Positions 6,634 through 19,438 of a stretch of DNA of 64,000 nucleotides are shown one piece after another. Below the pieces are notes generated by a model. That model made no database searches and was not told the origin of the DNA. It saw only the letters and a list, made by a program, of their open reading frames with translations. Every line of letters begins with the position of its first letter. The stretch's first letter is position 1. This stretch comes from Ancylobacter sp. WKF20. GTDB lineage: Bacteria > Pseudomonadota > Alphaproteobacteria > Rhizobiales > Xanthobacteraceae. The position numbers were made by a program, and so were the translations under genes. The stretch lies in NCBI RefSeq assembly GCF_029760895.1, contig NZ_CP121679.1:3516001-3580000 (forward strand), in the 5' to 3' direction.

Positions 6634-9600
6634 ATGACGGTAAAGGCGGGGAATGGCGCGCGCATCGATGTGCGGCGTGGGGATGTTTTTGCGCGCGCGG
6701 CGTCGGCCCGCTTGCGCCAGGGGCTGCTGGCGGGTGCCGCGCTGATCCCGATGCTCATGGGCGGTGGCGCTGCGCAGGCGGCACCCATGCCCAGTGCCTG
6801 CACGGTCACCGGAACGACGATGCTGACCGGCTGCGACGGCACTTATGCCAGCGTCGACATGACGCCCGGCACCGGCTCGCTGACCGTCGACAGTCTCGTC
6901 ACGGTCTCCGTCATCTATCCGTCGCCGCTCACGCTGGGGATCTACAACCAGACCGTCACGCTGACCGGCACGACGGTGCTGGACAACCCGGACTACAGCG
7001 CGCTGATCATGCAGTTCGGCACCGATCACGACGCTCACGTCATAGCCGTCACGGTCAACGCCACGGTCAACATCGGCAGCAACGTCGTGGCGACCGCGGA
7101 AGACGGTTTCGGCACCATCTGGGTGCGCAATGATTATGGCGGGTCGGTCACCATCGACAATGCCGGCACGATCACCTACACGGCGACGAACGACGGAGAC
7201 CTGGTTGCCGCGATCAGCGGCGTGACCAATTTCGGGCCGGTGACGATAACCAATAGCGGCGCGGTCACCTCCAACAATGCCTGGGGCATCTATGCCGACG
7301 GCAATTACCGCGGCCCGACCGACGGCCAGCGGGAGACGGTGTCCGTCACCAACACCGAGAGCGGCGTCGTCACCGCCTACACCGCCGGTATCCGCGTCAT
7401 CGACTATTACGGGCTGGCGGAGCTGACCAATGAGGGCACTGTCACCTCGACGCTTCGGCAGGCGCTGGTGGCCTGGTCGAACAATGGCGATACCACCATC
7501 ACCAATTCTGGCACCGCAACATCCCAAAATGACAATGCCGTCTATGCGATGACGGAGATCGGCAAGGTCACCGTCACCAATAGTGGCACGGTGACGGCCT
7601 ATGGCGACCCGACGCTCGACGCGGCTCATATCGCGCTGACCGAAACCCTCTCCGGCTTCAATGGCCTGCGCGGCACGGCCTACACGTCGGGCGATATCGA
7701 GATCACCAACGAGGCCACCGGCATCGTCAGTGCCGTTCGCGACGCCGCCATCCTCGCCGAAACGCCGGTCGGCGACATCACGATCACCAATGCCGGCCAG
7801 CTCACCGGCAAATATGGCATCGTCGCCAATAGCGGCTTCGCCACCGGCGGCAGCTCGGCCACGGTGCCGACCACGCAGGGCGACATCGACGTTACCAATA
7901 GCGGCCAAATCACCGCGACCGACCTTGCCGTGTCGCTCGATGCCACCACCAACCGGCTGGACAATAGCGGGACCATCGAGACCTCCGGCACGACAGCGGT
8001 TGAGACCGGCAATGGCAACAGCACGGTCATCAACAGCGGCACCATCGCCGCCGCGACCGCCAGCGACATCGCGGTCAGCATGGGCACGGGCAGCAACCGC
8101 TTCGTGCTCGCCGACACCGCGACGGTGACCGGCATCGTCACCAATGCGAGCAGCGGCAACACGCTGGAGCTGACCGGCAGCGCCTCGGGCACGTTCAACC
8201 TCGACAGCGTCAATGACACCGGCGCCTATCGCGGCTTCGGTAATCTTGAAAAGTCCGGCACCGGCACCTGGGTGCTCACCGGCGAGAGCCCGACGCTGAC
8301 CGGCACGGTCACCGTCTCGGCCGGCACGCTGCAGGTCGGCAATGGCGGCACGTCAGGAACCATCGCTGCCAATGTGTCGATCGCCAGTGGCGCCACGCTC
8401 ACCATCAACCGGTCGGACGATCTCGTCTTCGCCAATGTCATTTCCGGCACCGGCTCGCTGGTGAAGGACGGGGCGAACACGCTGACCCTGACCGGCGAGA
8501 ACACCTTCTCCGGCGTCGTCACCATCAATGCCGGCACGCTGCAGATCGGCAATGGCGGCGCGACCGGTTCGATTGCCGGCGACATCGTCAATAATGCCGC
8601 GCTCGTGTTCAACCGCACCGGCACCTACGACTTCCCCGGCACCATCACCGGCAGCGGCTCCGTCACCATTCTCTCCGGCACGGTGAACTTCATCGGCGCC
8701 TCCGGCTATACCGGGCCGATCGACGTGGCCGGCGCTGACCTCGTGCTGACGGAAGGCTCGACCTCCAGCTCCACCTTCACCGTCACCGGCGGTGGCGTGC
8801 TGAGCGGCGAGGGCACCATTGCCGGCCTCTCGGTGGGCAATGGCGGCAGCGTCGCGCCGGGCTATTCGCCGGGCACGCTCACCGTCGCCGGCAATGTCGA
8901 TTTCGGCGGCGGCTCGACCTATGTCGTCGACATCGCCGCCGACGGCACGCACGATCTGATCCTCGCGACCGGCACGGCGACGCTGAGCGGCGGCACGGTG
9001 CAGGTGGTGGCGGAGGCCGGCTATGTCACGCCGCTCGCGACCTACACCATCCTCACGGCGGGCGGCGGGCTCACCGGCACCTTCGACACGGTGAGCAGCA
9101 ATTTCGCCTTCCTCACGCCGATCCTCGGCTATGACGCCAGCAACGTCTATCTGACGCTGGCGCGCAACGACATCAGCTTCGCCAGCGTCGGCCAGACGGC
9201 GAACCAGCAGGCGACCGGCGCGGGCGTGGAAACCCTCGGCCTCGGCAACCCGGTCTATGACGCGGTGCTGTCGATCTCGACCACCAACGCTCCCATCGCC
9301 TTCGACGCCCTGTCGGGTGAGGCCTATGCGACGGTGACGACCATCTTCGCCCAGCAGTCGAGCTATCTGCGCGAGGCGGTGGGCGGGCGCGTGCGCCAGG
9401 GCTTCGCCGAGGACGCGGCGGCGAGCGGCCCGCAGACCGCGGCGCTGACGCCCGGCTCGGGCGCGGTGCTGTGGGCGCAGGGCTATGGCGCCTGGGGCAA
9501 CAATTCCAGCAATGGCAACGCCGCGAGCGCCGACAGCACTGTGGGCGGCTTCTTCGCCGGCGCCGACATCCCGCTCGGCGACAGCTGGCGGTTCGGCGTG

Positions 9601-10320
9601 CTGACCGGCTACAGCCGCTCGACCATCGACGTGGATGATCGCGGCTCCTCGGCCGACAGCGACAATTACGATCTCGGCCTGTATGGCGGCGCGCGCTATG
9701 GCGCGCTCGGCGTGCTGCTCGGCGCCTCCTACACCTGGCACGACGTGTCGATGAGCCGGAGCATCGCCTTCCCCGGCTATGCCGGGGCGGCGTCCTCCAG
9801 CTACGACGCCGCCACCGCCCAGCTCTTCGGCGAGCTGAGCTGGCGCGTGCCGGTGGCGCAGGCGCTGCCCGGCCTGCCGAGCACGGGCACGGGCGCCTAT
9901 GTCGAGCCCTTTGCCGGCCTTGCCTATGTGAGCCTCACCTCGGACGACTTCACCGAGACCGGCTCCACGGCGGCGCTGACCGGCTCGGCGGCCGATGAGA
10001 ACGTGTTCTACTCGACGCTGGGCATTCGCGCTGCGACCGAGGTGGAGCTGAAGGGTGGGGTGAAGGCGCGGCCCTATCTCAGCCTCGGCTGGCAATATGC
10101 CTTCGGTGATGTGGATCCGACGGCGACCCTCGCCTTCGCCTCGGGCAGCGCCGCCTTCCAGGTGTCGGGCCTGCCGATCGCCCAGAACACCGCGCTGGTC
10201 GGCCTCGGCCTTGATGTCGCGCTGTCGGACACGGTGCGGGCGGGCGTGAGCTATGGCGGCCAGTTCGCTTCGGATGCCAGCGACAACACCTTCAAGGGCT
10301 CGCTGAACATCCGCTTCTGA
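6634..10320 (+). CDS. Autotransporter (type Va) with passenger repeats and C-terminal beta-barrel
   Basis: This 1228-aa secreted protein has a long N-terminal signal region with a hydrophobic core (LLAGAALIPMLMGGGAAQAA, cleavage near residue 50). It is followed by a Thr/Gly/Asn-rich passenger rich in short ITNSGT-type repeats over residues ~190-460, typical of right-handed beta-helices. Two PATR-type units (GTGTWVLTGE..GTLQVGNGG and NTLTLTGENTFSG..GTLQIGNGG) lie near residues 540-650. A C-terminal autotransporter barrel starts near residue 940 (GAVLWAQGYGAWGN) and ends in the outer-membrane-type terminal Phe (NIRF). The barrel would insert in the outer membrane and export the passenger. Possible roles are adhesion or biofilm formation; there is no protease or lipase motif. 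The gene stands alone and is convergent with cfa. Confidence 0.92.
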   Translation: MTVKAGNGARIDVRRGDVFARAASARLRQGLLAGAALIPMLMGGGAAQAAPMPSACTVTGTTMLTGCDGTYASVDMTPGTGSLTVDSLVTVSVIYPSPLTLGIYNQTVTLTGTTVLDNPDYSALIMQFGTDHDAHVIAVTVNATVNIGSNVVATAEDGFGTIWVRNDYGGSVTIDNAGTITYTATNDGDLVAAISGVTNFGPVTITNSGAVTSNNAWGIYADGNYRGPTDGQRETVSVTNTESGVVTAYTAGIRVIDYYGLAELTNEGTVTSTLRQALVAWSNNGDTTITNSGTATSQNDNAVYAMTEIGKVTVTNSGTVTAYGDPTLDAAHIALTETLSGFNGLRGTAYTSGDIEITNEATGIVSAVRDAAILAETPVGDITITNAGQLTGKYGIVANSGFATGGSSATVPTTQGDIDVTNSGQITATDLAVSLDATTNRLDNSGTIETSGTTAVETGNGNSTVINSGTIAAATASDIAVSMGTGSNRFVLADTATVTGIVTNASSGNTLELTGSASGTFNLDSVNDTGAYRGFGNLEKSGTGTWVLTGESPTLTGTVTVSAGTLQVGNGGTSGTIAANVSIASGATLTINRSDDLVFANVISGTGSLVKDGANTLTLTGENTFSGVVTINAGTLQIGNGGATGSIAGDIVNNAALVFNRTGTYDFPGTITGSGSVTILSGTVNFIGASGYTGPIDVAGADLVLTEGSTSSSTFTVTGGGVLSGEGTIAGLSVGNGGSVAPGYSPGTLTVAGNVDFGGGSTYVVDIAADGTHDLILATGTATLSGGTVQVVAEAGYVTPLATYTILTAGGGLTGTFDTVSSNFAFLTPILGYDASNVYLTLARNDISFASVGQTANQQATGAGVETLGLGNPVYDAVLSISTTNAPIAFDALSGEAYATVTTIFAQQSSYLREAVGGRVRQGFAEDAAASGPQTAALTPGSGAVLWAQGYGAWGNNSSNGNAASADSTVGGFFAGADIPLGDSWRFGVLTGYSRSTIDVDDRGSSADSDNYDLGLYGGARYGALGVLLGASYTWHDVSMSRSIAFPGYAGAASSSYDAATAQLFGELSWRVPVAQALPGLPSTGTGAYVEPFAGLAYVSLTSDDFTETGSTAALTGSAADENVFYSTLGIRAATEVELKGGVKARPYLSLGWQYAFGDVDPTATLAFASGSAAFQVSGLPIAQNTALVGLGLDVALSDTVRAGVSYGGQFASDASDNTFKGSLNIRF

Positions 10321-10328
10321 CCCTCGCG

Positions 10329-10359
10329 CCGCCCGGTCCCATCGGGGCCGGCCGGGCGG
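10329..10359. terminator. GC-rich hairpin between convergent genes
   Basis: CCGCCCGG (10329-10336) pairs with CCGGGCGG (10352-10359), giving an 8-bp stem between the autotransporter stop and the cfa-like gene stop. There is no U-run on either side, so it is only a possible bidirectional terminator. Confidence 0.35.
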
Positions 10360-10362
10360 GTA

Positions 10363-11583
10363 TCAGCCGCGCAGCTTGTAGAGGCCGACGTCGATGACGC
10401 CGGCCCGGAAGCCGCCCTCGCAATAGGCGAGGTAATAGTCCCACAGCCGGCGAAACGATTCGCTGAAGCCGAGGCGCTGCACGTCCGGCCAGGACGCGTG
10501 GAAGCGCCGGCGCCACTCCGCCAGCGTCAGCGCATAGCCCATGCCGAAATGGTCGGCCCGCTCCAGCGTCAGCCCGGCATCCGCCGCCAGCCCGTCAATG
10601 GCGCTCTTGGTCGGCAGCATCCCGCCGGGGAAGATGTGGCGCTGGATGAAGTCCGGGTCGCGACGGTAGGAGTCGAACTTGTCCTCGGCGATGGTGATGA
10701 CCTGAAGCACGGCGATGCCGCCTTCCTTCAGCCGCTCGCGCAGCGCGCCGAAATAGACCGGCCAGTAGGTCTCGCCGACCGCCTCCATCATCTCGATGGA
10801 GACGATGCGGTCATAGCGACCATCGGCGTCGCGGTAGTCCTGAAGGCGCAGATCCACCTGATCGGACAGGCCGCGCTCGACCATGAGCTGCTCGGCATGG
10901 GCCAACTGCTCGCGCGACAGGGTAAGCCCGGTGACGCGCGCGCCGGCGTCGCCCATGGCGCCCGCAAGGCCGCCCCAGCCGCAGCCGATTTCCAGCACGC
11001 TGTCGCCCGCCTCAAGCTCCAGCAGATCGAGGATGCGGGCGATCTTGGCCTGCTGCGCGGCCTCCAGCGATTGGGTGCGGTCCTCGAACAGCGCCGAGGA
11101 ATAGGTCATGGAGGGGTCGAGCCAGAGCCGGTAGAAATCATTGCCGAGGTCGTAATGGAACGCGATGTTGCGGCGGCTTCCGCGCTTGGAATTGGCGTTC
11201 AGCGCATGGCTCAGCCGGTTCCACAGCCGCAGCGGCAGCATGGCGGCGATGGTGCGGGTCATCTGCGCCTGGTTGAGCGCGGCGAGCTCGATCAGGGCGG
11301 CGAGGTCCGGGCTGGTCCAGTCGCCGTCAATATAGGCGTCGGAGAAGCCGATATCGCCGCCGGCGAGCAGGCGGCGTATGGCGCGCCAGCGGTGCAGCAC
11401 CAGCGTCGCCTCGGGGCCCGCCTCGGCGCCGCGCCCGCTCAGGCGCTGGCCGCCGGGAAGCACCACGTGCAGCCGGCCCAGCGTCACGGTGGCGAGCAGG
11501 CGCGCGACCACCAGACGGCCGATGAACGAATCGCTGCGCGCCGGTTCGGCGGTGGCCGTAACGTGGTCGCTTTCAGTCAGCAT
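10363..11583 (-). CDS. Cyclopropane-fatty-acyl-phospholipid synthase-family SAM methyltransferase
   Basis: This 406-aa protein is of the CFA synthase/mycolic-acid methyltransferase family, which methylates unsaturated acyl chains in membrane phospholipids using S-adenosylmethionine. The SAM-binding motif is VLEIGCGWGGLAGAMG near residue 196. Family signatures IAFHYDLGNDFYRLW and MTYSSALF precede it, and SIEMMEAVGETYWPVYF follows. The ATG at 11583 overlaps the stop of the DUF1365 gene by 11 nt, and DUF1365 in turn overlaps the FAD oxidoreductase gene. It is therefore the third gene of an operon read from a RpoE-type promoter at 13886-13912. It could be a true cyclopropane synthase or a methylase making methyl-branched unsaturated acyl chains (UfaM-like); sequence alone does not decide. 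Confidence 0.92.
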   Translation of the reverse strand: MLTESDHVTATAEPARSDSFIGRLVVARLLATVTLGRLHVVLPGGQRLSGRGAEAGPEATLVLHRWRAIRRLLAGGDIGFSDAYIDGDWTSPDLAALIELAALNQAQMTRTIAAMLPLRLWNRLSHALNANSKRGSRRNIAFHYDLGNDFYRLWLDPSMTYSSALFEDRTQSLEAAQQAKIARILDLLELEAGDSVLEIGCGWGGLAGAMGDAGARVTGLTLSREQLAHAEQLMVERGLSDQVDLRLQDYRDADGRYDRIVSIEMMEAVGETYWPVYFGALRERLKEGGIAVLQVITIAEDKFDSYRRDPDFIQRHIFPGGMLPTKSAIDGLAADAGLTLERADHFGMGYALTLAEWRRRFHASWPDVQRLGFSESFRRLWDYYLAYCEGGFRAGVIDVGLYKLRG

Positions 11584-12478
11584 GCACGATCCTCGGGGTC
11601 TGCGGAGTGGACGGAAGGGGGACGGTGGCAAGCGGGCCTGGGAGTGGGACGGCGGGGAGCGAGACCGCGTCCGCCGGTGGCGGCGGGCGGCGCCGCAAGC
11701 CTATCCCCTTGGCCCAGATGAATAACGCCTCCCAGTGAATACCGGCCATCACTTTGAGCGTAAGCAGCGGATAGGAAAAGAGTGCCCGTGCCAGCGTGCC
11801 ATCGGTGAGCGGGCGGCGATGCGCGCGGTGGGCGGCGACGAGGACCGGGCCCTCGTGGTCATGGGCGGTGATGGCAACCGTGAAGGCCTCGCCCGGCGGC
11901 TCGACGCGGAAGGCGTAGTCGAGCCCCATATCCATGAAGGGCGAGACATAGAAGCACTTCGCCGCGCTCTGCCGGACCATGCCGCCGGTGCCCTCGCCGG
12001 GCGCCACCGGGATGAAATAGCTGTGGCGCTGGCCGAAGGTGTTGTTCACCTCATAGAGCAGGGCGGCGAGCGTGCCGTCCGCCCGGTGGCAGAAATAGAT
12101 GCTGAGCGGGTTGAAGGCGTAGCCGAACAGGCGCGGCATGGTCAGCAGGCGGATCGCCCCGCCATCGGGGGCGAGGCCGGCCTGGCGCATCACCTCTTCG
12201 GCATAGGCCTTGAGCGGCGTGCCGTCGCCGCGCCCGTAATCGGCGTCGTGCAGGCTGAACAGGTTGAAGCGGTTATGCGCGAACAGTCGCAGCCGCTTAT
12301 CGAGCGCCGGCAGTTCGTCGAGATCGACCAGCAGCGAGAACAGCCGGTAGCGCAGCCGGTGCTTGCGCGGGCGCAGCCGGGCATGGATCACCGCGCCGGC
12401 GTAAAGCGCGGAGCCGCGTGACAGACCTTCGGGCGCGGCCAACTCGCGGGCCGCGCCGGCTTGGTCGCCGCAGCTCAT
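11573..12478 (-). CDS. DUF1365 domain-containing protein
   Basis: The 301-aa product belongs to the DUF1365 family. The N-terminal signature (SALYAGAVIHARLRP, then RYRLFSLLVDLDEL) and the central FGYAFNPLSIYFC block around residue 120 are characteristic, followed by EVNNTFGQRHSY. No catalytic function is established for the family. It is almost always found beside an FAD-dependent amine-oxidase-like protein and a CFA-like methyltransferase, as here, so a role in modifying membrane fatty acids is inferred. The ATG at 12478 overlaps the preceding stop (ATGA), and its own stop lies inside the start of the cfa-like gene. There are no signal peptide or clear transmembrane spans except a weakly hydrophobic C-terminal stretch. 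A Pro-rich tail ends the protein. Confidence 0.88.
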   Translation of the reverse strand: MSCGDQAGAARELAAPEGLSRGSALYAGAVIHARLRPRKHRLRYRLFSLLVDLDELPALDKRLRLFAHNRFNLFSLHDADYGRGDGTPLKAYAEEVMRQAGLAPDGGAIRLLTMPRLFGYAFNPLSIYFCHRADGTLAALLYEVNNTFGQRHSYFIPVAPGEGTGGMVRQSAAKCFYVSPFMDMGLDYAFRVEPPGEAFTVAITAHDHEGPVLVAAHRAHRRPLTDGTLARALFSYPLLTLKVMAGIHWEALFIWAKGIGLRRRPPPPADAVSLPAVPLPGPLATVPLPSTPQTPRIVHAD

Positions 12479-13836
12479 GCCGCCACCCCGCCGCCGAACT
12501 GGCGGAAGGGCACGGGACCGACATGGATGCGCCCGCTCTCCTGCGCGACATTCCACGGCCGGCGCACGCCGCCCAGCGCCTCGGCGACGGCAAGGCCGGC
12601 CTGCAGCCCGTCCTCATGGAAGCCCGCGCCGAAATAGGCGCCGCAGAACCACACCCCGCCCTCGCCCTGCAGCGACCAGAGCCGCTTCTGGGCGGCCATG
12701 GCGCGGCCATCGAACAGCGGGTGGCGGTAGCTCTGGGTGTAGTGGACGGTCTCGGGATGCGGGTCCGTCAGCGGGTTGAGGGTGACGAAGAGCGGCGTCG
12801 AACCGGGGAGATTCTGCAGCTTGTTCATCCAGTAGGTGACGGAGAGCGCCCCCGGCCGGTCCTGCTGCGCCAGATAGTTCCACGCCGCCCAGGCGCGCCG
12901 GCGCACCGGCATGAGGCTCGGGTCGGAATGCAGCACGGTCTCGTTCACCGAATAGCTGAAGGCGCCCAGCACGTCCCGCTCGCGCGCGGTCGGCGCCTCG
13001 ATGAGGCGCAGCGCCTGGTCGGCGTGGCAGGCGAGCACCACCTCGTCGAAGCGGCGGTGATGGCCGTCCGCGTCGATCACCTCGACCCCGCGGGCGTCGC
13101 GCCGCACCGCCACGACGGGGGTGCGGGTGACCGCCTCGCCGCGCATGGCGCCGTGCAGCCGCTTCACATATTCCCGGCTGCCGCCGCGCACCGTGCGCCA
13201 GATCGGCCGGCCGGTGAGCTTCAACAGTCCGTGATTCGCGCAGAAGCGGGTGAAGGCGGTGAAGGGATAGCGCCCGACCTCGCCGGCCGGCGTCGACCAG
13301 ATGGCGGCGGCCATCGGGTAGAGATGGTCCTCGCGGAAGGCGAGGCTGTAGCCATTTGCGTCGAGATAGTCGGCAAGGCTGCCCTCGAAGCTCTCCGCGT
13401 CGCGCGGCGCCTCGCGGTAGAAGCGCAGCAGGTCGCGCAGCATGGCCCAGTGGCGCGGGCGGACCAGATTGCGCCGCTGCGCGAACAGGCCCGGCAGGTT
13501 GGCGCCGGAATATTCCAGCCGGCCGCCATCGAGCGAGACGGCAAAGGACATGTCGGTCGCCTGCGTGCCGACGCCCAGATGCTCGAACAGCGCGGTGAGG
13601 TTGGGATAGGTCGGGGTGTTGTAGACGATGAAGCCGGTATCGACCGCGAGCCCCGCGGCATCGCGGGTATGGGCATGGCCGCCCAGCCGCGGTTCGGCCT
13701 CATAGAGCGTCACATTATGGGCCTGCGACAGCAGCCAGGCGGCGGAGAGCCCGGAGACGCCGCTGCCCACCACGGCCACATCCAGTCGACGCGGCGGCGC
13801 GGGAGAAAGCGATGCAGGCTCGATACGCAAAGTCAC
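12475..13836 (-). CDS. FAD/NAD(P)-binding oxidoreductase (amine oxidase/desaturase-like)
   Basis: This 453-aa flavoprotein has the FAD Rossmann motif VVGSGVSGLSAAWLL (G24-x-G-x-x-G29), followed by the ADP-ribose-binding acidic residue in LYEAEPRLGGHAHT. It resembles phytoene-desaturase/amine-oxidase-type proteins that sit at the head of the FAD-DUF1365-CFA cluster. In alphaproteobacteria these clusters act on acyl chains, so oxidation or desaturation of a lipid is the likely role (inference). Translation starts at a GTG (13836). The -10 element of the promoter at 13886-13912 lies about 50 nt upstream, leaving a short leader. It is the first gene of the three-gene minus-strand operon, divergent from the sigma factor gene. 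Confidence 0.88.
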   Translation of the reverse strand: MTLRIEPASLSPAPPRRLDVAVVGSGVSGLSAAWLLSQAHNVTLYEAEPRLGGHAHTRDAAGLAVDTGFIVYNTPTYPNLTALFEHLGVGTQATDMSFAVSLDGGRLEYSGANLPGLFAQRRNLVRPRHWAMLRDLLRFYREAPRDAESFEGSLADYLDANGYSLAFREDHLYPMAAAIWSTPAGEVGRYPFTAFTRFCANHGLLKLTGRPIWRTVRGGSREYVKRLHGAMRGEAVTRTPVVAVRRDARGVEVIDADGHHRRFDEVVLACHADQALRLIEAPTARERDVLGAFSYSVNETVLHSDPSLMPVRRRAWAAWNYLAQQDRPGALSVTYWMNKLQNLPGSTPLFVTLNPLTDPHPETVHYTQSYRHPLFDGRAMAAQKRLWSLQGEGGVWFCGAYFGAGFHEDGLQAGLAVAEALGGVRRPWNVAQESGRIHVGPVPFRQFGGGVAA

Positions 13837-13885
13837 CGGCGATCTCCCAGACGAGGCAAGCGATAGGATCGAAGTTGTTTCCGCT

Positions 13886-13912
13886 ATACGCTACCGTGTT
13901 GACGATAGATCA
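13886..13912 (-). promoter_or_regulatory. Predicted RpoE (ECF11-type) promoter for the FAD-DUF1365-CFA operon
   Basis: On the minus strand TGATC (13912-13908) and CGTAT (13890-13886) are separated by exactly 17 nt. The same motif with the same spacing precedes rpoE and the DUF2177 gene. The first gene of the operon starts at 13836, so the leader would be about 40-45 nt. Confidence 0.75.
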
Positions 13913-13925
13913 CCGAGGTAAAAGG

Positions 13926-13952
13926 TGATCCGCCACCGAACCGGCGGCGTAT
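13926..13952 (+). promoter_or_regulatory. Predicted RpoE (ECF11-type) autoregulatory promoter of rpoE-chrR
   Basis: TGATC (13926-13930), a 17-nt spacer, then CGTAT (13948-13952). The -35 element lies 13 nt from the divergent -35 element of the FAD operon, so the two promoters are back to back. An ATG at 13951 lies inside the -10 element, so it cannot be the translation start of rpoE if this promoter is used. Confidence 0.75.
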
Positions 13953-14028
13953 GAGGGGCATGAATGCAGAGCCAGCCATCCATCGGTCGAGACGTTCGGG
14001 AAGCCGTACTGGGTTGCGGAGTCCCATT

Positions 14029-14607
14029 GTGACGGATGTTGCCTTGAGCGGCGCCATGCCGAATGGGGAAGAATTCGACCGGCTGATCGCCCAGATCGCG
14101 TCTGACCGCGACAAACAGGCGTTCGCCTTGCTCTACAAGCATTTCGCGCCGCGGCTGAAAGCCTTTCTGCTGCGCTCGGGCCTCCCCAATGCCGTGGCGG
14201 AGGAACTGGCGCAGGAGGCCATGCTTTCGGTCTGGCGCAAGGCCACCTATTTCGATCCGCAACGCGCCGGGGCAGCGACGTGGATCTTCACCATCGCCCG
14301 TAACCTGCGGATCGACTATCTGCGGCGCGACCGGACCACCTCCGCTCCCGATGTGGAGCCGGAAGAGACGGTCGACGACGTCCAGAATGGCGAAACCTTC
14401 CTGATACGGACCGAGCGCGAGGAACGCCTGCGCATTGCCATGAAGAGCCTCTCTCCCGAACAGGCGACGATCGTCCGCCTCTCCTTCTTCAACGAAAAAC
14501 CCCACTCGGAAATCGCCAGCGAACTCGGCCTGCCGCTCGGCACGGTCAAGTCGCGCGTGCGCCTTGCCCTCGGCAAGCTGCGCGCCATGCTGGAGGGTCA
14601 GCTTTGA
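14029..14607 (+). CDS. rpoE: RNA polymerase ECF sigma factor, RpoE (ECF11, ChrR-controlled)
   Basis: This 192-aa sigma-70 family protein of the ECF type has region 2 (AEELAQEAMLSVWRKA, then TWIFTIARNLRIDYLR) and region 4 with a helix-turn-helix (HSEIASELGLPLGTVKSRV). The adjacent zinc anti-sigma gene identifies it as the ECF11 group, whose Rhodobacter sphaeroides member responds to singlet oxygen and organic hydroperoxides. The start is taken as the GTG at 14029, with GCGGAG about 8 nt upstream. An upstream ATG at 13951 falls in the -10 box; an internal ATG at 14056 is also possible. The stop overlaps the chrR start. Likely targets in this window are its own gene, the divergent lipid operon and the DUF2177 gene. 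Confidence 0.93.
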   Translation: MTDVALSGAMPNGEEFDRLIAQIASDRDKQAFALLYKHFAPRLKAFLLRSGLPNAVAEELAQEAMLSVWRKATYFDPQRAGAATWIFTIARNLRIDYLRRDRTTSAPDVEPEETVDDVQNGETFLIRTEREERLRIAMKSLSPEQATIVRLSFFNEKPHSEIASELGLPLGTVKSRVRLALGKLRAMLEGQL

Positions 14608-15260
14608 GCATCCAGCATCATCCCAGCGACGAAACCCTGCTGCGCTACGCCGCCGGCCGCCTGCCGACCGCGCCGAGCCTCGTGATCGCCACCCATCTTG
14701 CCAGCTGCCCGGCCTGCCAGGCGCGCGTCGGCACCTTCGAGGCCATGGGCGGCGCCCTCTTGGAGCAGGTGACGCCCGAGCCGATGGAGCCGGAGGCGCT
14801 CGCCCGCCTTCTCGCGCAGATCGACGCGCCGCAGGCCCCGCGCCGCCCAACTCCGCCGCGCAAGCCGGCGCCGACCCTGCCCGGTGGCATCCCGCTGCCC
14901 GCGCCCCTGCGCGGGTGCGAGATGGGCCGATGGCGATGGCTCGGTCCGGGGGTGCGGGCAAGCTCGCTCACCTTGCCTTATGACCGCTCCGCGCGGCTCA
15001 CCTTGCTGCGCGTCGGGCCCGGCCGGAAGCTGCCCGAGCACGGCCATACCGGGCTGGAATTCACCCAGATCATCACCGGCTCCTTCTCCGACGGCTTCGG
15101 CCAATACCGGCCGGGCGACCTCAGCGAGATGGATGCGGAGATCGACCACCAGCCCGTGGTCGATCCTGATGGCGAATGCATCTGCCTTACCGCCATGGAA
15201 GGCGAGATGCGCATTGGCGGCATGTTTGGCCGCCTGCTGACCTCCATCGCGCGCATCTGA
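14604..15260 (+). CDS. chrR: Zinc-dependent anti-sigma factor ChrR
   Basis: The 218-aa ChrR-family protein holds RpoE inactive in the cytoplasm until singlet oxygen or related stress. The N-terminal anti-sigma domain has the zinc ligands at H6, H31, C35 and C38 (HLASCPAC), the same spacing as the Rhodobacter protein. A Pro-rich linker (residues ~75-100) leads to a C-terminal cupin domain with candidate second-metal ligands H146, H148, E152 and H182. That domain is needed for the stress response in the known system. Translation starts at a TTG that overlaps the rpoE stop (TTGA); GGAGGG six nt upstream supports it. The two proteins are thus translationally coupled, with a weak start for the inhibitor. 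Confidence 0.94.
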   Translation: MSIQHHPSDETLLRYAAGRLPTAPSLVIATHLASCPACQARVGTFEAMGGALLEQVTPEPMEPEALARLLAQIDAPQAPRRPTPPRKPAPTLPGGIPLPAPLRGCEMGRWRWLGPGVRASSLTLPYDRSARLTLLRVGPGRKLPEHGHTGLEFTQIITGSFSDGFGQYRPGDLSEMDAEIDHQPVVDPDGECICLTAMEGEMRIGGMFGRLLTSIARI

Positions 15261-15276
15261 CCGGGAGCCGACCCTG

Positions 15277-16098
15277 ATGGCCGGCACCCTCGCACTCCTT
15301 CTGCTCGCGGCCCTCGGCGTCATGGCGCTGGCCATGACGCTCGCCTGGGTGCTTGCGCGGCGCACCGGCAGCCATGGCTGGGTCGATACGGTCTGGTCCT
15401 TCGCGGTCGGGCTGACAGCCGTGACGCTGGCGCTTCTGCCGCTCACCCCCGAATCACCCACGCTGCGGCAGATCGTGGTGGCCGCCGCCGCCGGCCTGTG
15501 GTCGCTGCGGCTCGGCTCGCATATCCTCGCCCGCACGCTGAAGGGCGGCGACGATCCCCGCTATGCGGAACTGGTGCGCGAATGGGGGCCGTCGGCGCCG
15601 AGCCGGCTGTTTCTTTTTCTGCAGATTCAGGCGGTTTGCGGTCTCATCCTCGCCGGCGCGGTGATGGCGGCGGCGCATGCGCCCATGCCCTTCGGCAGCG
15701 TGTGGGACATTCTGGGGCTGCTCGTCATCGTCGTCGCGGTGGCCGGCGAGGGGCTGGCCGACCGCCAGCTCGCGGCCTTCCGGGCCAATCCCTCCAATCG
15801 CGGCAAGGTCTGCGACGTCGGTCTGTGGGGCGTGAGCCGTCATCCGAACTATTTCTTCGAATGGATGGCGTGGGTCGCCTACCCGCTCTTCGCCATCGAC
15901 ACCGGCGGCGATTATCTCGTCGGCTATGCGGCATTGGCCGGGCCGGCGCTGATGTACTGGTTGCTGGTCCATGCCTCCGGCATTCCGCCGACCGAGGCGC
16001 ATATGCTGCGCTCGCGCGGCGACGCCTTCCGCGCCTATATGGCCCGCGTCAACAGCTTTTGGCCCGGCCCGCCGAAGAAGCCCGGTCGGGGCCGCTAG
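15277..16098 (+). CDS. DUF1295 membrane protein (steroid 5-alpha-reductase-like)
   Basis: This 273-aa inner-membrane protein has six or so hydrophobic helices and the C-terminal family signature GVSRHPNYFFEWMAWV near residue 185, ending with a short basic tail. DUF1295 proteins belong to the same clan as steroid 5-alpha reductases and isoprenylcysteine methyltransferases, so NAD(P)H-dependent reduction or methylation of a lipid is plausible but unproven. The ATG lies 17 nt after chrR with GGGAG just upstream, so it is the third gene of the rpoE operon and expected to be induced with it. Homologues recur in RpoE-ChrR and FAD-DUF1365-CFA gene clusters. It is convergent with the DUF2177 gene, with only 4 nt between the stops. 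Confidence 0.9.
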   Translation: MAGTLALLLLAALGVMALAMTLAWVLARRTGSHGWVDTVWSFAVGLTAVTLALLPLTPESPTLRQIVVAAAAGLWSLRLGSHILARTLKGGDDPRYAELVREWGPSAPSRLFLFLQIQAVCGLILAGAVMAAAHAPMPFGSVWDILGLLVIVVAVAGEGLADRQLAAFRANPSNRGKVCDVGLWGVSRHPNYFFEWMAWVAYPLFAIDTGGDYLVGYAALAGPALMYWLLVHASGIPPTEAHMLRSRGDAFRAYMARVNSFWPGPPKKPGRGR

Positions 16099-16102
16099 AG
16101 CC

Positions 16103-16519
16103 TTAGAGCCCCATCCAGCGCCCGAGGCCGCGCGCCGCGAGAAAGCCGAGCGTGGCGGAGACGCCGGTGGCGAAAGTGCCCCAGCTCATGTCGATGACGG
16201 TGAGGGCGGTCGGCCAGTTCTTCAGCGTCGCCTGGTTGGTCAGGTCATAGGTGCCATAGGCCATCAGCCCGAACAGCAGGCCATAGACCAGCGCCGTCGT
16301 CCATTTGCCCGACACGATGGCGGGATGGATGGCGAAGATCACGATGCCGACAATGTACATCAGGTAGAAGATGGCGGCCGGGGCGAGACTGAACCCGTCC
16401 TGCGCCAGATCGCCCATCAGCGGCCGGTAGATCCGCGTCGCCATGGTGCCGAGCCAGACCGAATCAAGCGCGAGAAACGCGAGCCCGGTGGCGAGATAGG
16501 AGAGGACGTAAATCGCCAT
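16103..16519 (-). CDS. DUF2177 membrane protein
   Basis: This 138-aa protein is made of four hydrophobic helices and matches DUF2177 (N-terminal AIYVLSYLATGLAFLALDSVWLG; central YGTYDLTNQATLKNW is the most conserved family block; MSWGTFATG follows). The function of the family is unknown, but it recurs beside CFA, DUF1365 and RpoE/ChrR genes. The start is the ATG at 16519, preceded by GGGGA. A perfect copy of the RpoE-type promoter motif lies at 16549-16575, giving a leader of roughly 20-25 nt. The gene is convergent with the DUF1295 gene and is a separate transcription unit of the same predicted regulon. Confidence 0.88.
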   Translation of the reverse strand: MAIYVLSYLATGLAFLALDSVWLGTMATRIYRPLMGDLAQDGFSLAPAAIFYLMYIVGIVIFAIHPAIVSGKWTTALVYGLLFGLMAYGTYDLTNQATLKNWPTALTVIDMSWGTFATGVSATLGFLAARGLGRWMGL

Positions 16520-16548
16520 GGCGTTTCCCCGCGGGTGACAGACCGGAG

Positions 16549-16575
16549 ATACGGCCCGCCCGGCGCGACGGATCA
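16549..16575 (-). promoter_or_regulatory. Predicted RpoE (ECF11-type) promoter for the DUF2177 gene
   Basis: On the minus strand TGATC (16575-16571) and CGTAT (16553-16549) are again separated by 17 nt. This is the third identical motif in 2.7 kb, and it faces a gene of the same functional group with its start 30 nt downstream. Confidence 0.7.
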
Positions 16576-16655
16576 ACGCGGGCCCGTGCCAACGGTTGCA
16601 AGCGCGTCAGGAACTATGGGGATGTCGGGGTCGATCACGCGGGATCGGGGAGATT

Positions 16656-16731
<76 letters not shown>

Positions 16732-16841
16732 ACCGGGGGTTGCCGGGCTGCGCGCTGCCGAAACAGGCGCTTGGGTTCTTACCCGGCGGCCGCTCCGGCA
16801 AGTGGCCGGGGCGGGATGGTCGTAAACCACATGGAGGATGA

Positions 16842-19438
<2,597 letters not shown>

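Follow-up and report, generated by a model that had tools for sequence, protein, structure and literature searches.

Known sigmaE–ChrR regulons and the Ancylobacter locus

Regulons in which an extracytoplasmic function (ECF) sigma factor, RpoE or sigmaE, is paired with the anti-sigma factor ChrR share a core that was reportedly defined by Dufour 2008, as papers citing that work relate. Here we compare with the described systems of this kind a locus of Ancylobacter sp. WKF20 that holds an rpoE–chrR pair, a divergent operon of lipid genes and a gene for a DUF2177 membrane protein, with three copies of one promoter motif between positions 13,886 and 16,575 of the 64,000-nucleotide window that we analysed (contig NZ_CP121679.1, positions 3,516,001 to 3,580,000; coordinates are those of the window unless given as genome or locus positions). 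We consider it very probable that this locus is an ECF11 sigmaE–ChrR stress switch together with its furan-fatty-acid genes.

The core regulon of Rhodobacter sphaeroides (PMC6852236) resembles the locus in its sigma factor, in a ZAS–cupin anti-sigma factor with eight zinc ligands, in the type of promoter motif, and in including the ufaD, ufaO and ufaM families and a photolyase. The window differs in that a DUF1295 gene within the rpoE operon and a DUF2177 gene with its own promoter are not among the eight conserved core genes, as judged by the annotations in Table 2 of PMC5507510. The PSPTO_1043/1042 regulon of Pseudomonas syringae likewise contains photolyase and lipid genes, and its motif from chromatin immunoprecipitation sequencing (ChIP-seq), TGATCC-N16-CGTA, has a spacing identical to that of the sites in the window; PSPTO_0744 tolerates C at the first -35 base, as does the photolyase site of the Ancylobacter genome. 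There, however, the lipid genes sit in one photolyase locus, and DUF2177 is not named in the portion of the article on which this comparison draws (PMC5507510). For Vibrio cholerae the motif is given as TGATC-N18-CGTAT in the text and with N16-18 in a figure legend (PMC5241685), and a motif of this type is thus already published for RpoE–ChrR systems. Stenotrophomonas maltophilia, with rpoEc–chrR–chrA and a nine-gene lipid cluster, is alike in having a ChrR-controlled FAD/CFA cluster and inner-membrane proteins of unknown function, but carries the NAD(P)-binding chrA behind chrR in place of DUF1295 (PMC11832516).

An initial annotation, made from the sequence of the window alone, had predicted an RpoE–ChrR membrane-lipid regulon of seven genes. 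The regulon is supported by the sequences of the sigma and anti-sigma factors, by the published motif and by its conservation before rpoE, ufaD and DUF2177, and the count of seven stands because DUF1295 starts 16 nt after chrR. That annotation overlooked that the regulon is already known, and it named neither furan fatty acids as the likely product nor the photolyase and a relocated hydrolase as members. The system being known in kind, our analysis adds the linkage of DUF2177 and DUF1295, an exchange of regulators and a refined motif.

The sigma factor, its anti-sigma factor and the promoter motif

The protein encoded by rpoE (13960..14607, plus strand) contains Sigma70_r2 and r4 domains, and its best match in the PDB is R. 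sphaeroides RpoE (2q1z_A, E 1.1e-41; runner-up SigK, 5.4e-18). Its longest open reading frame (ORF) begins at an ATG at 13951, which lies within the -10 element and is therefore unusable as a start from the rpoE promoter; translation probably begins at one of the in-frame ATGs at 13960 and 14056. The adjacent chrR (14604..15260, plus strand) encodes a zinc-binding cupin-domain anti-sigma factor that scores 220 bits against TIGR02451 (cut-off 124.5) and 204 bits against the stricter equivalog NF051881, under the 300-bit cut-off of that model. Aligned to 2z2s_B over most of its length (E 1.8e-42), it keeps all eight zinc ligands, which are H6, H31, C35 and C38 in the ZAS and H141, H143, E147 and H177 in the cupin domain (PMC6852236). 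An RpoE-like ECF sigma factor and a ZAS–cupin anti-sigma factor, encoded side by side with TGATC-N17-CGTA upstream, support assignment to the ECF11 sigmaE–ChrR systems, and rpoE would accordingly be expected to regulate its own transcription.

Three sites of the form TGATC-N17-CGTAT had been proposed, and their coordinates, their 17-nt spacers and their positions relative to the genes all proved exact. They are the predicted sigmaE-type promoters of rpoE–chrR–DUF1295 (13926..13952, plus strand, TGATCCG-N15-CGTA), of the divergent ufaD–ufaO–ufaM operon (13886..13912, minus strand, TGATCTA-N15-CGTA) and of the DUF2177 gene (16549..16575, minus strand, TGATCCG-N15-CGTA), each an exact match followed by T. 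From the end of the -10 element there are 49 nt to the GTG of ufaD (13836) and 29 nt to the ATG of the DUF2177 gene (16519).

The window would be expected to contain 0.11 such matches (sd 0.35), and none of 100 shuffles reached three. A genome-wide scan, which the initial annotation had proposed as a check, found just five sites in the single contig of 4,630,237 bases; the chance that three of five fall inside 2.7 kb is about 1e-5. Less favourably, one of the two additional sites, at genome position 306055, lies within coding sequence. It could be argued that the three sites are simply chance copies of a short two-part pattern, and the two further exact sites in the genome, of which that at 306055 has a spacer conserved as coding DNA would be, lend this some colour. 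We regard the argument as practically negligible: with 0.11 matches expected per window (0.01 for the refined motif described below), the sites are also conserved in relatives despite different spacers, and this conservation already refutes chance. When the spacer was varied over 16, 17, 18 and 19 nt, TGATC and CGTA were found 13, 24, 13 and 15 times in the genome (65 in total), an excess at 17 nt which suggests that about ten of the genome's sites with that spacer are genuine.

To refine the motif we used 65 distinct promoters of rpoE, ufaD and DUF2177 from relatives, which had been preselected for exact TGATC-N17-CGTA, which leaves only the positions beyond those nine fixed letters to inform the consensus. 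The final T of CGTAT, which had been taken as part of the motif, is a free base in these promoters (A 17, C 34, G 22 and T 28%), and the two bases following TGATC are constrained (C 91 and T 9%, then G 65 and A 34%). These frequencies suggest TGATCYR-N15-CGTA as the consensus. It has three matches in the window against 0.01 expected, and with one mismatch allowed five against 2.01, so single-mismatch sites by themselves prove nothing. As controls we relied on shuffles, spacing variants and genomes without ChrR; a reversed-pattern control was judged too lenient because many bacteria have few copies of CTAG, a tetranucleotide present in the reversed motif.

The divergent operon and furan fatty acids

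In R. sphaeroides, the S-adenosylmethionine (SAM)-dependent methylase UfaM (RSP2144), the desaturase UfaD (RSP1091) and the DUF1365 protein UfaO (RSP1090) convert cis-vaccenoyl chains to a methyl furan fatty acid; the three genes are reported to be sufficient for furan synthesis there, and RPA2571-2570-2569 of Rhodopseudomonas palustris (ufaD, ufaO and ufaM) yield 9M5-FuFA when expressed in R. sphaeroides (PMC7380195). The operon divergent from rpoE is alike in its enzyme families, and its gene order matches that of R. palustris. All on the minus strand, it comprises a ufaD-like gene for an FAD-dependent amine-oxidase-family enzyme, a predicted fatty acyl desaturase (12475..13836; PF01593, 89.8 bits), a ufaO-like DUF1365 gene for a predicted furan-forming oxygenase (11573..12478; PF07103, 275.4 bits) and a ufaM-like gene for a SAM-dependent fatty acyl methylase of the CMAS family (10363..11631 as the longest ORF, its start being unsettled; PF02353, 285.6 bits), and the overlapping gene ends make these a single run. 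From this match we conclude that the genes most likely build furan membrane lipids. One may postulate instead that the CFA-like enzyme is an ordinary cyclopropane-lipid synthase and the FAD and DUF1365 proteins have another function, with no furan lipid formed; the nearest named NCBIfam models are indeed cyclopropane synthases, all matched below their cut-offs. We consider this improbable, as both the order and the families of the three genes equal those of the R. palustris set that makes 9M5-FuFA (PMC7380195).

Where the operon departs from the R. sphaeroides and R. palustris pathway is in standing back to back with rpoE, the -35 elements of the two promoters (13886-13952) being 13 nt apart. 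A distance of 12-13 nt recurs in 14 of 22 loci of relatives that have a divergent motif pair, and two polymerases at these promoters may interfere or cooperate. Mutants without furan genes are reported to be impaired in the increase of sigmaE activity that singlet oxygen brings about (PMC6852236), and the divergent arrangement would therefore make neighbours of the two halves of a feedback loop. How furan fatty acids lead to ChrR turnover is an open problem of the singlet-oxygen response.

By analogy with R. sphaeroides and R. palustris, from which the inducer, the turnover of ChrR and the furan product are taken, ChrR would keep RpoE inactive until singlet oxygen or organic hydroperoxides led to its removal. 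Polymerase carrying the freed RpoE would then read the TGATCYR-N15-CGTA promoters of rpoE–chrR–DUF1295, ufaD–ufaO–ufaM and DUF2177, regulation that we read from sequence throughout, and the products of the operon would methylate, desaturate and oxygenate the vaccenoyl chains of phospholipids to give a furan fatty acid. A photolyase and an alpha/beta hydrolase encoded elsewhere in the genome would be further likely targets.

Beyond the operon, a 1228-residue ORF (6634-10320, plus strand) ends tail to tail with ufaM and appears autotransporter-like by eye, with repeats and a possible barrel domain.

Conservation of the motif and its association with ChrR

We counted ChrR as present where a match exceeded the TIGR02451 cut-off, so that genomes "without ChrR" include several with weaker matches (for example 71.5 bits in G313 and 22.9 bits in G022). 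In 61 genomes, our own included, ChrR was found in 35 and DUF2177 in 28; among the 30 Ancylobacter genomes (again with our own), the two coincide fully, 19 genomes having both and 11 having neither. An even sample of the phylum (299 genomes) contained 41 with DUF2177, 65 with ChrR and 22 with both, against 8.9 expected (Fisher 1.1e-6). We examined 34 ChrR loci of other genomes. Where rpoE was found, 26 of 30 loci have an exact motif before it; the corresponding figures are 23 of 28 for ufaD and 19 of 24 for DUF2177, and the spacer sequences vary among relatives while the motif stays.

We then considered 57 regions upstream of DUF2177 genes, of which 29 account for every match in the 61 genomes and 28 were added from the phylum sample, with 12 other matches from that sample left out for want of a locus. 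With at most one mismatch and a 17-nt spacer, the motif occurs in 28 of 38 regions from genomes with ChrR and in none of 19 from genomes without; the exact motif occurs in 22 of 38 and again 0 of 19. Counting genuine sites too, the background in ChrR loci amounts to 3.3% per 200 nt at up to one mismatch and 1.3% for exact matches. Counted by genome at up to one mismatch, the figures are 27/37 with ChrR and 0/19 without; counted by genus they are 9/18 and 0/15 (p 0.001), the fairer comparison given that Fisher values treat relatives as independent. DUF2177 genes distant from chrR also keep the motif: L156 has an exact site with chrR on another contig, and L086 and L094 have sites with one mismatch. 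The motif before DUF2177 thus goes with the presence of ChrR, unlinked copies included, which is a new observation.

Linkage was assessed by scanning genome contigs with a 20-member DUF2177 alignment and taking the best 80 loci by identity out of at least 595 candidates, and the resulting fractions are therefore valid for near relatives only. Within 8 kb of DUF2177, these 80 loci contain ufaD in 61, ufaO in 59, DUF1295 in 57, chrR in 40 and ufaM in 39 cases. DUF2177 has an exact motif before it in 23 of the 40 loci with chrR nearby and in 8 of the 40 without. At five loci (L326 and L327, both Roseibium, L328, L331 and L340) DUF2177 has an exact motif and no module gene was found within 8 kb, and neighbours are therefore not the source of the motif. 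Of the 40 loci with chrR, 25 have the motif with at most one mismatch before DUF2177 and two have a module gene no more than 250 nt upstream of DUF2177; DUF1295 follows chrR in 23 of its 57 loci. On a Shinella plasmid that was annotated independently (the record for L288), genes for the sigma factor, ChrR, DUF1295, the CFA-like enzyme, DUF2177, DUF1365, the FAD enzyme and a catalase occur together, and at L376 (NZ_CP093338.1, 405825-422223) the module and a catalase are found on an 893 kb Shinella plasmid.

Several observations weigh against an ECF11 switch that governs this module. In genomes with ChrR, ten of the 38 regions upstream of DUF2177 lack the motif at one mismatch and a 17-nt spacer, and among the 80 loci, 13 of the 40 with chrR nearby have neither their own motif nor a same-strand module gene within 250 nt upstream; of the 34 DUF1295 genes that do not follow chrR, four have their own motif (two of them exact, at L267 and L289). 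The assignment of ufaD, ufaO and ufaM is made by family and gene order, and the homologous Stenotrophomonas system is reported for tolerance to superoxide and not to singlet oxygen (PMC11832516). In addition, motif-like sites stand before both folE and the photolyase gene in four of 11 Ancylobacter genomes without ChrR (two exact for folE, none for the photolyase), so that the motif is no perfect proxy for ChrR. These last sites would also be expected if another ECF sigma factor of the genome read the motif, its place beside rpoE being incidental. That scenario seems to us very improbable: the motif stands before rpoE itself in 26 of 30 loci, it was not found before DUF2177 in any of the 19 regions without ChrR, and it equals the ChIP-seq motif of the P. 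syringae RpoE–ChrR homologue (PMC5507510).

A probable exchange of the regulator

Nine of the best 80 loci have an rpoE-like match and no chrR match. In eight of these the sigma gene is followed by an ORF of 235-246 residues (L276, L277 and L285 in Agrobacterium/Rhizobium, L280 and L287 in one Novosphingobium genome, L337 in Caulobacter sp., L336 and L342 in Agrobacterium), and the ninth (L319) is cut off at a contig end. All five of the ORFs that were scanned (L276, L280, L285, L336 and L337) match RskA_C (PF10099, 68.5-79.5 bits, cut-off 29.4). Six of the eight loci contain ufaD and ufaO (not seen at L336 and L342) and seven contain DUF1295 (not seen at L337); L276:8001-9810 is an example of the module beside the different ECF sigma factor. 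Most simply explained, the furan module, DUF1295 and DUF2177 included, has come under the control of another type of sigma/anti-sigma pair, which would mean that this lipid module can change regulators while remaining intact. A pattern TGAAA-N18-CGTA precedes both DUF1295 and ufaD at L276, L277 and L285 (6 of 29 upstream regions, with a maximum of five in 30 random sets); as a possible promoter of the RskA-paired sigma factor it is a weak hint, because these three loci are related. Among the papers listed by a search that left many journals uncovered, none describes the RskA pairing of the module, which is weak evidence of novelty.

A possible part of DUF1295 and DUF2177 in the furan-lipid response

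The third gene of the rpoE operon (15277..16098, plus strand) encodes a DUF1295 membrane protein with a fold of the steroid 5-alpha-reductase (SRD5A/sterol reductase) type. RHPNYFxE and D162 are conserved in its alignment (A3) and partly common to 7c83; the fold is also common to the SAM methyltransferase ICMT, so that it does not settle the chemistry of DUF1295, for which NADPH-dependent reduction of an enone would be a candidate. Tail to tail with this gene lies that of the DUF2177 protein (16103..16519, minus strand; PF09945, 157.8 bits), a membrane protein modelled with four helices at pLDDT 96.0. Upstream of the DUF2177 promoter and on the same strand is a tRNA gene (16659-16731, minus strand), the sole match in an Rfam scan of 10000-18000, and read-through from it may supply DUF2177 independently of stress.

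The same gene set is pointed to in a green alga. In Chlamydomonas, the SAK1-dependent singlet-oxygen genes include CFA2, DUF1365, DUF2177 and DUF1295, induced 4.05, 3.50, 3.25 and 3.04 in wild type (taken as log2 from the ratio column); the last three families are each named once in the main text of that paper, in its table, and the common set is found in a eukaryote with a different regulator (PMC4067076). A search at title and abstract level, which left many journals uncovered and is weak evidence of novelty, found no paper treating DUF2177, or DUF1295 with DUF1365, in an ECF11 regulon. That DUF2177 and DUF1295 are linked with the furan-lipid response, as predicted here, is new, and it places two uncharacterised membrane families in a concrete setting.

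It is linkage that suggests a working relation of these two proteins with the furan lipid, and they could instead be mere neighbours carried along with no functional part in the module. That furan synthesis in R. sphaeroides needs no more than ufaM, ufaD and ufaO (PMC7380195), and that 19 of the 80 DUF2177 loci have no ufaD within 8 kb, fit such a scenario, which we hold to be unlikely though worth serious weight. Speaking against it, DUF2177 has its own sigmaE-type site even when unlinked, it stays with the ufa genes in six loci with a different sigma factor (five of which also keep DUF1295), and both families are induced by singlet oxygen in Chlamydomonas (PMC4067076). If the two proteins do have a part, they should act after or around synthesis, in turnover, repair or signalling, since the three ufa genes are sufficient for synthesis itself.

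Attack of singlet oxygen on a furan ring leaves an ene-dione. We tentatively raise the possibility, doubtful as a whole, that an ancient furan-lipid module for singlet oxygen is kept together under exchangeable regulators (ChrR–ECF11, RskA–ECF and green-algal SAK1), with DUF1295 and DUF2177 as its missing parts, active after synthesis; in this module DUF1295 would reduce the furan-derived ene-dione and so repair or reset the signal, and DUF2177 would be a small membrane partner coupling the state of the lipid to the response or to UfaO.

Additional candidate targets in the genome

For a photolyase gene (genome positions 702657-704096), CGATCCG-N15-CGTA begins 63 nt before the start of the gene; with up to one mismatch allowed, 17 of the 19 Ancylobacter genomes with ChrR have a site there (10 exact), against the four of 11 others noted above (p 0.004). 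An alpha/beta hydrolase forms a second case. At the four loci of other Ancylobacter genomes that we viewed (L095, L102, L103 and L113), an ORF of 292-298 residues with a similar start lies between chrR and DUF1295, and the one scanned, from L103, is an alpha/beta hydrolase. The hydrolase is not found between chrR and DUF1295 in our genome; a homologue 58% identical to the L103 ORF is encoded elsewhere (genome positions 3,011,279-3,012,214, the entry extending to 3,012,248; L159:680-1615, minus strand), directly behind an exact TGATCCG-N15-CGTA of its own. The motif sites make the photolyase and the relocated hydrolase likely additional RpoE targets.

The GTP cyclohydrolase I gene folE (genome positions 1485949-1486680, L030), with an exact motif beginning 66 nt upstream, is a possible target. 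Its site occurs in 15 of the 19 genomes with ChrR (14 exact) and in four of the 11 others, mostly 62-68 nt upstream, and the spacer is also conserved. That folE might provide a pterin cofactor for UfaO is only an idea.

Of two further candidates, PTPS was rejected and rpoH is not supported. The site before PTPS, at genome position 306055, falls within coding sequence upstream of the gene, and with TGATCG it also departs from the refined motif, G at that place occurring in none of the 65 promoters. Its counts lean with ChrR despite this rejection: in the 25 of 30 Ancylobacter genomes that have PTPS, the exact site is present in 14 of 18 with ChrR and two of seven without, and at up to one mismatch in 16 of 18 and three of seven (p 0.03). 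An exact site some 180-200 nt upstream of rpoH is confined to three of the 19 genomes with ChrR (our own and its two nearest) and absent from the 11 others, and in our genome it reads TGATCTC, unfit for the refined motif. A sigma cascade as in R. sphaeroides, where sigmaE is linked to rpoH, is not supported and not convincingly present here.

Ten of the 24 genome sites with a 17-nt spacer fit TGATCYR, namely the three in the window, those of folE and the hydrolase, and five more. Three of the five (genome positions 2123887, 4389758 and 4504625) were called coding by an ORF heuristic. The site at 2668267 lies 215 nt before a gene whose protein has a below-cut-off dCache match, and that at 1190771 begins 157 nt upstream of the start assigned to an ORF that we take to be UvrA-like.

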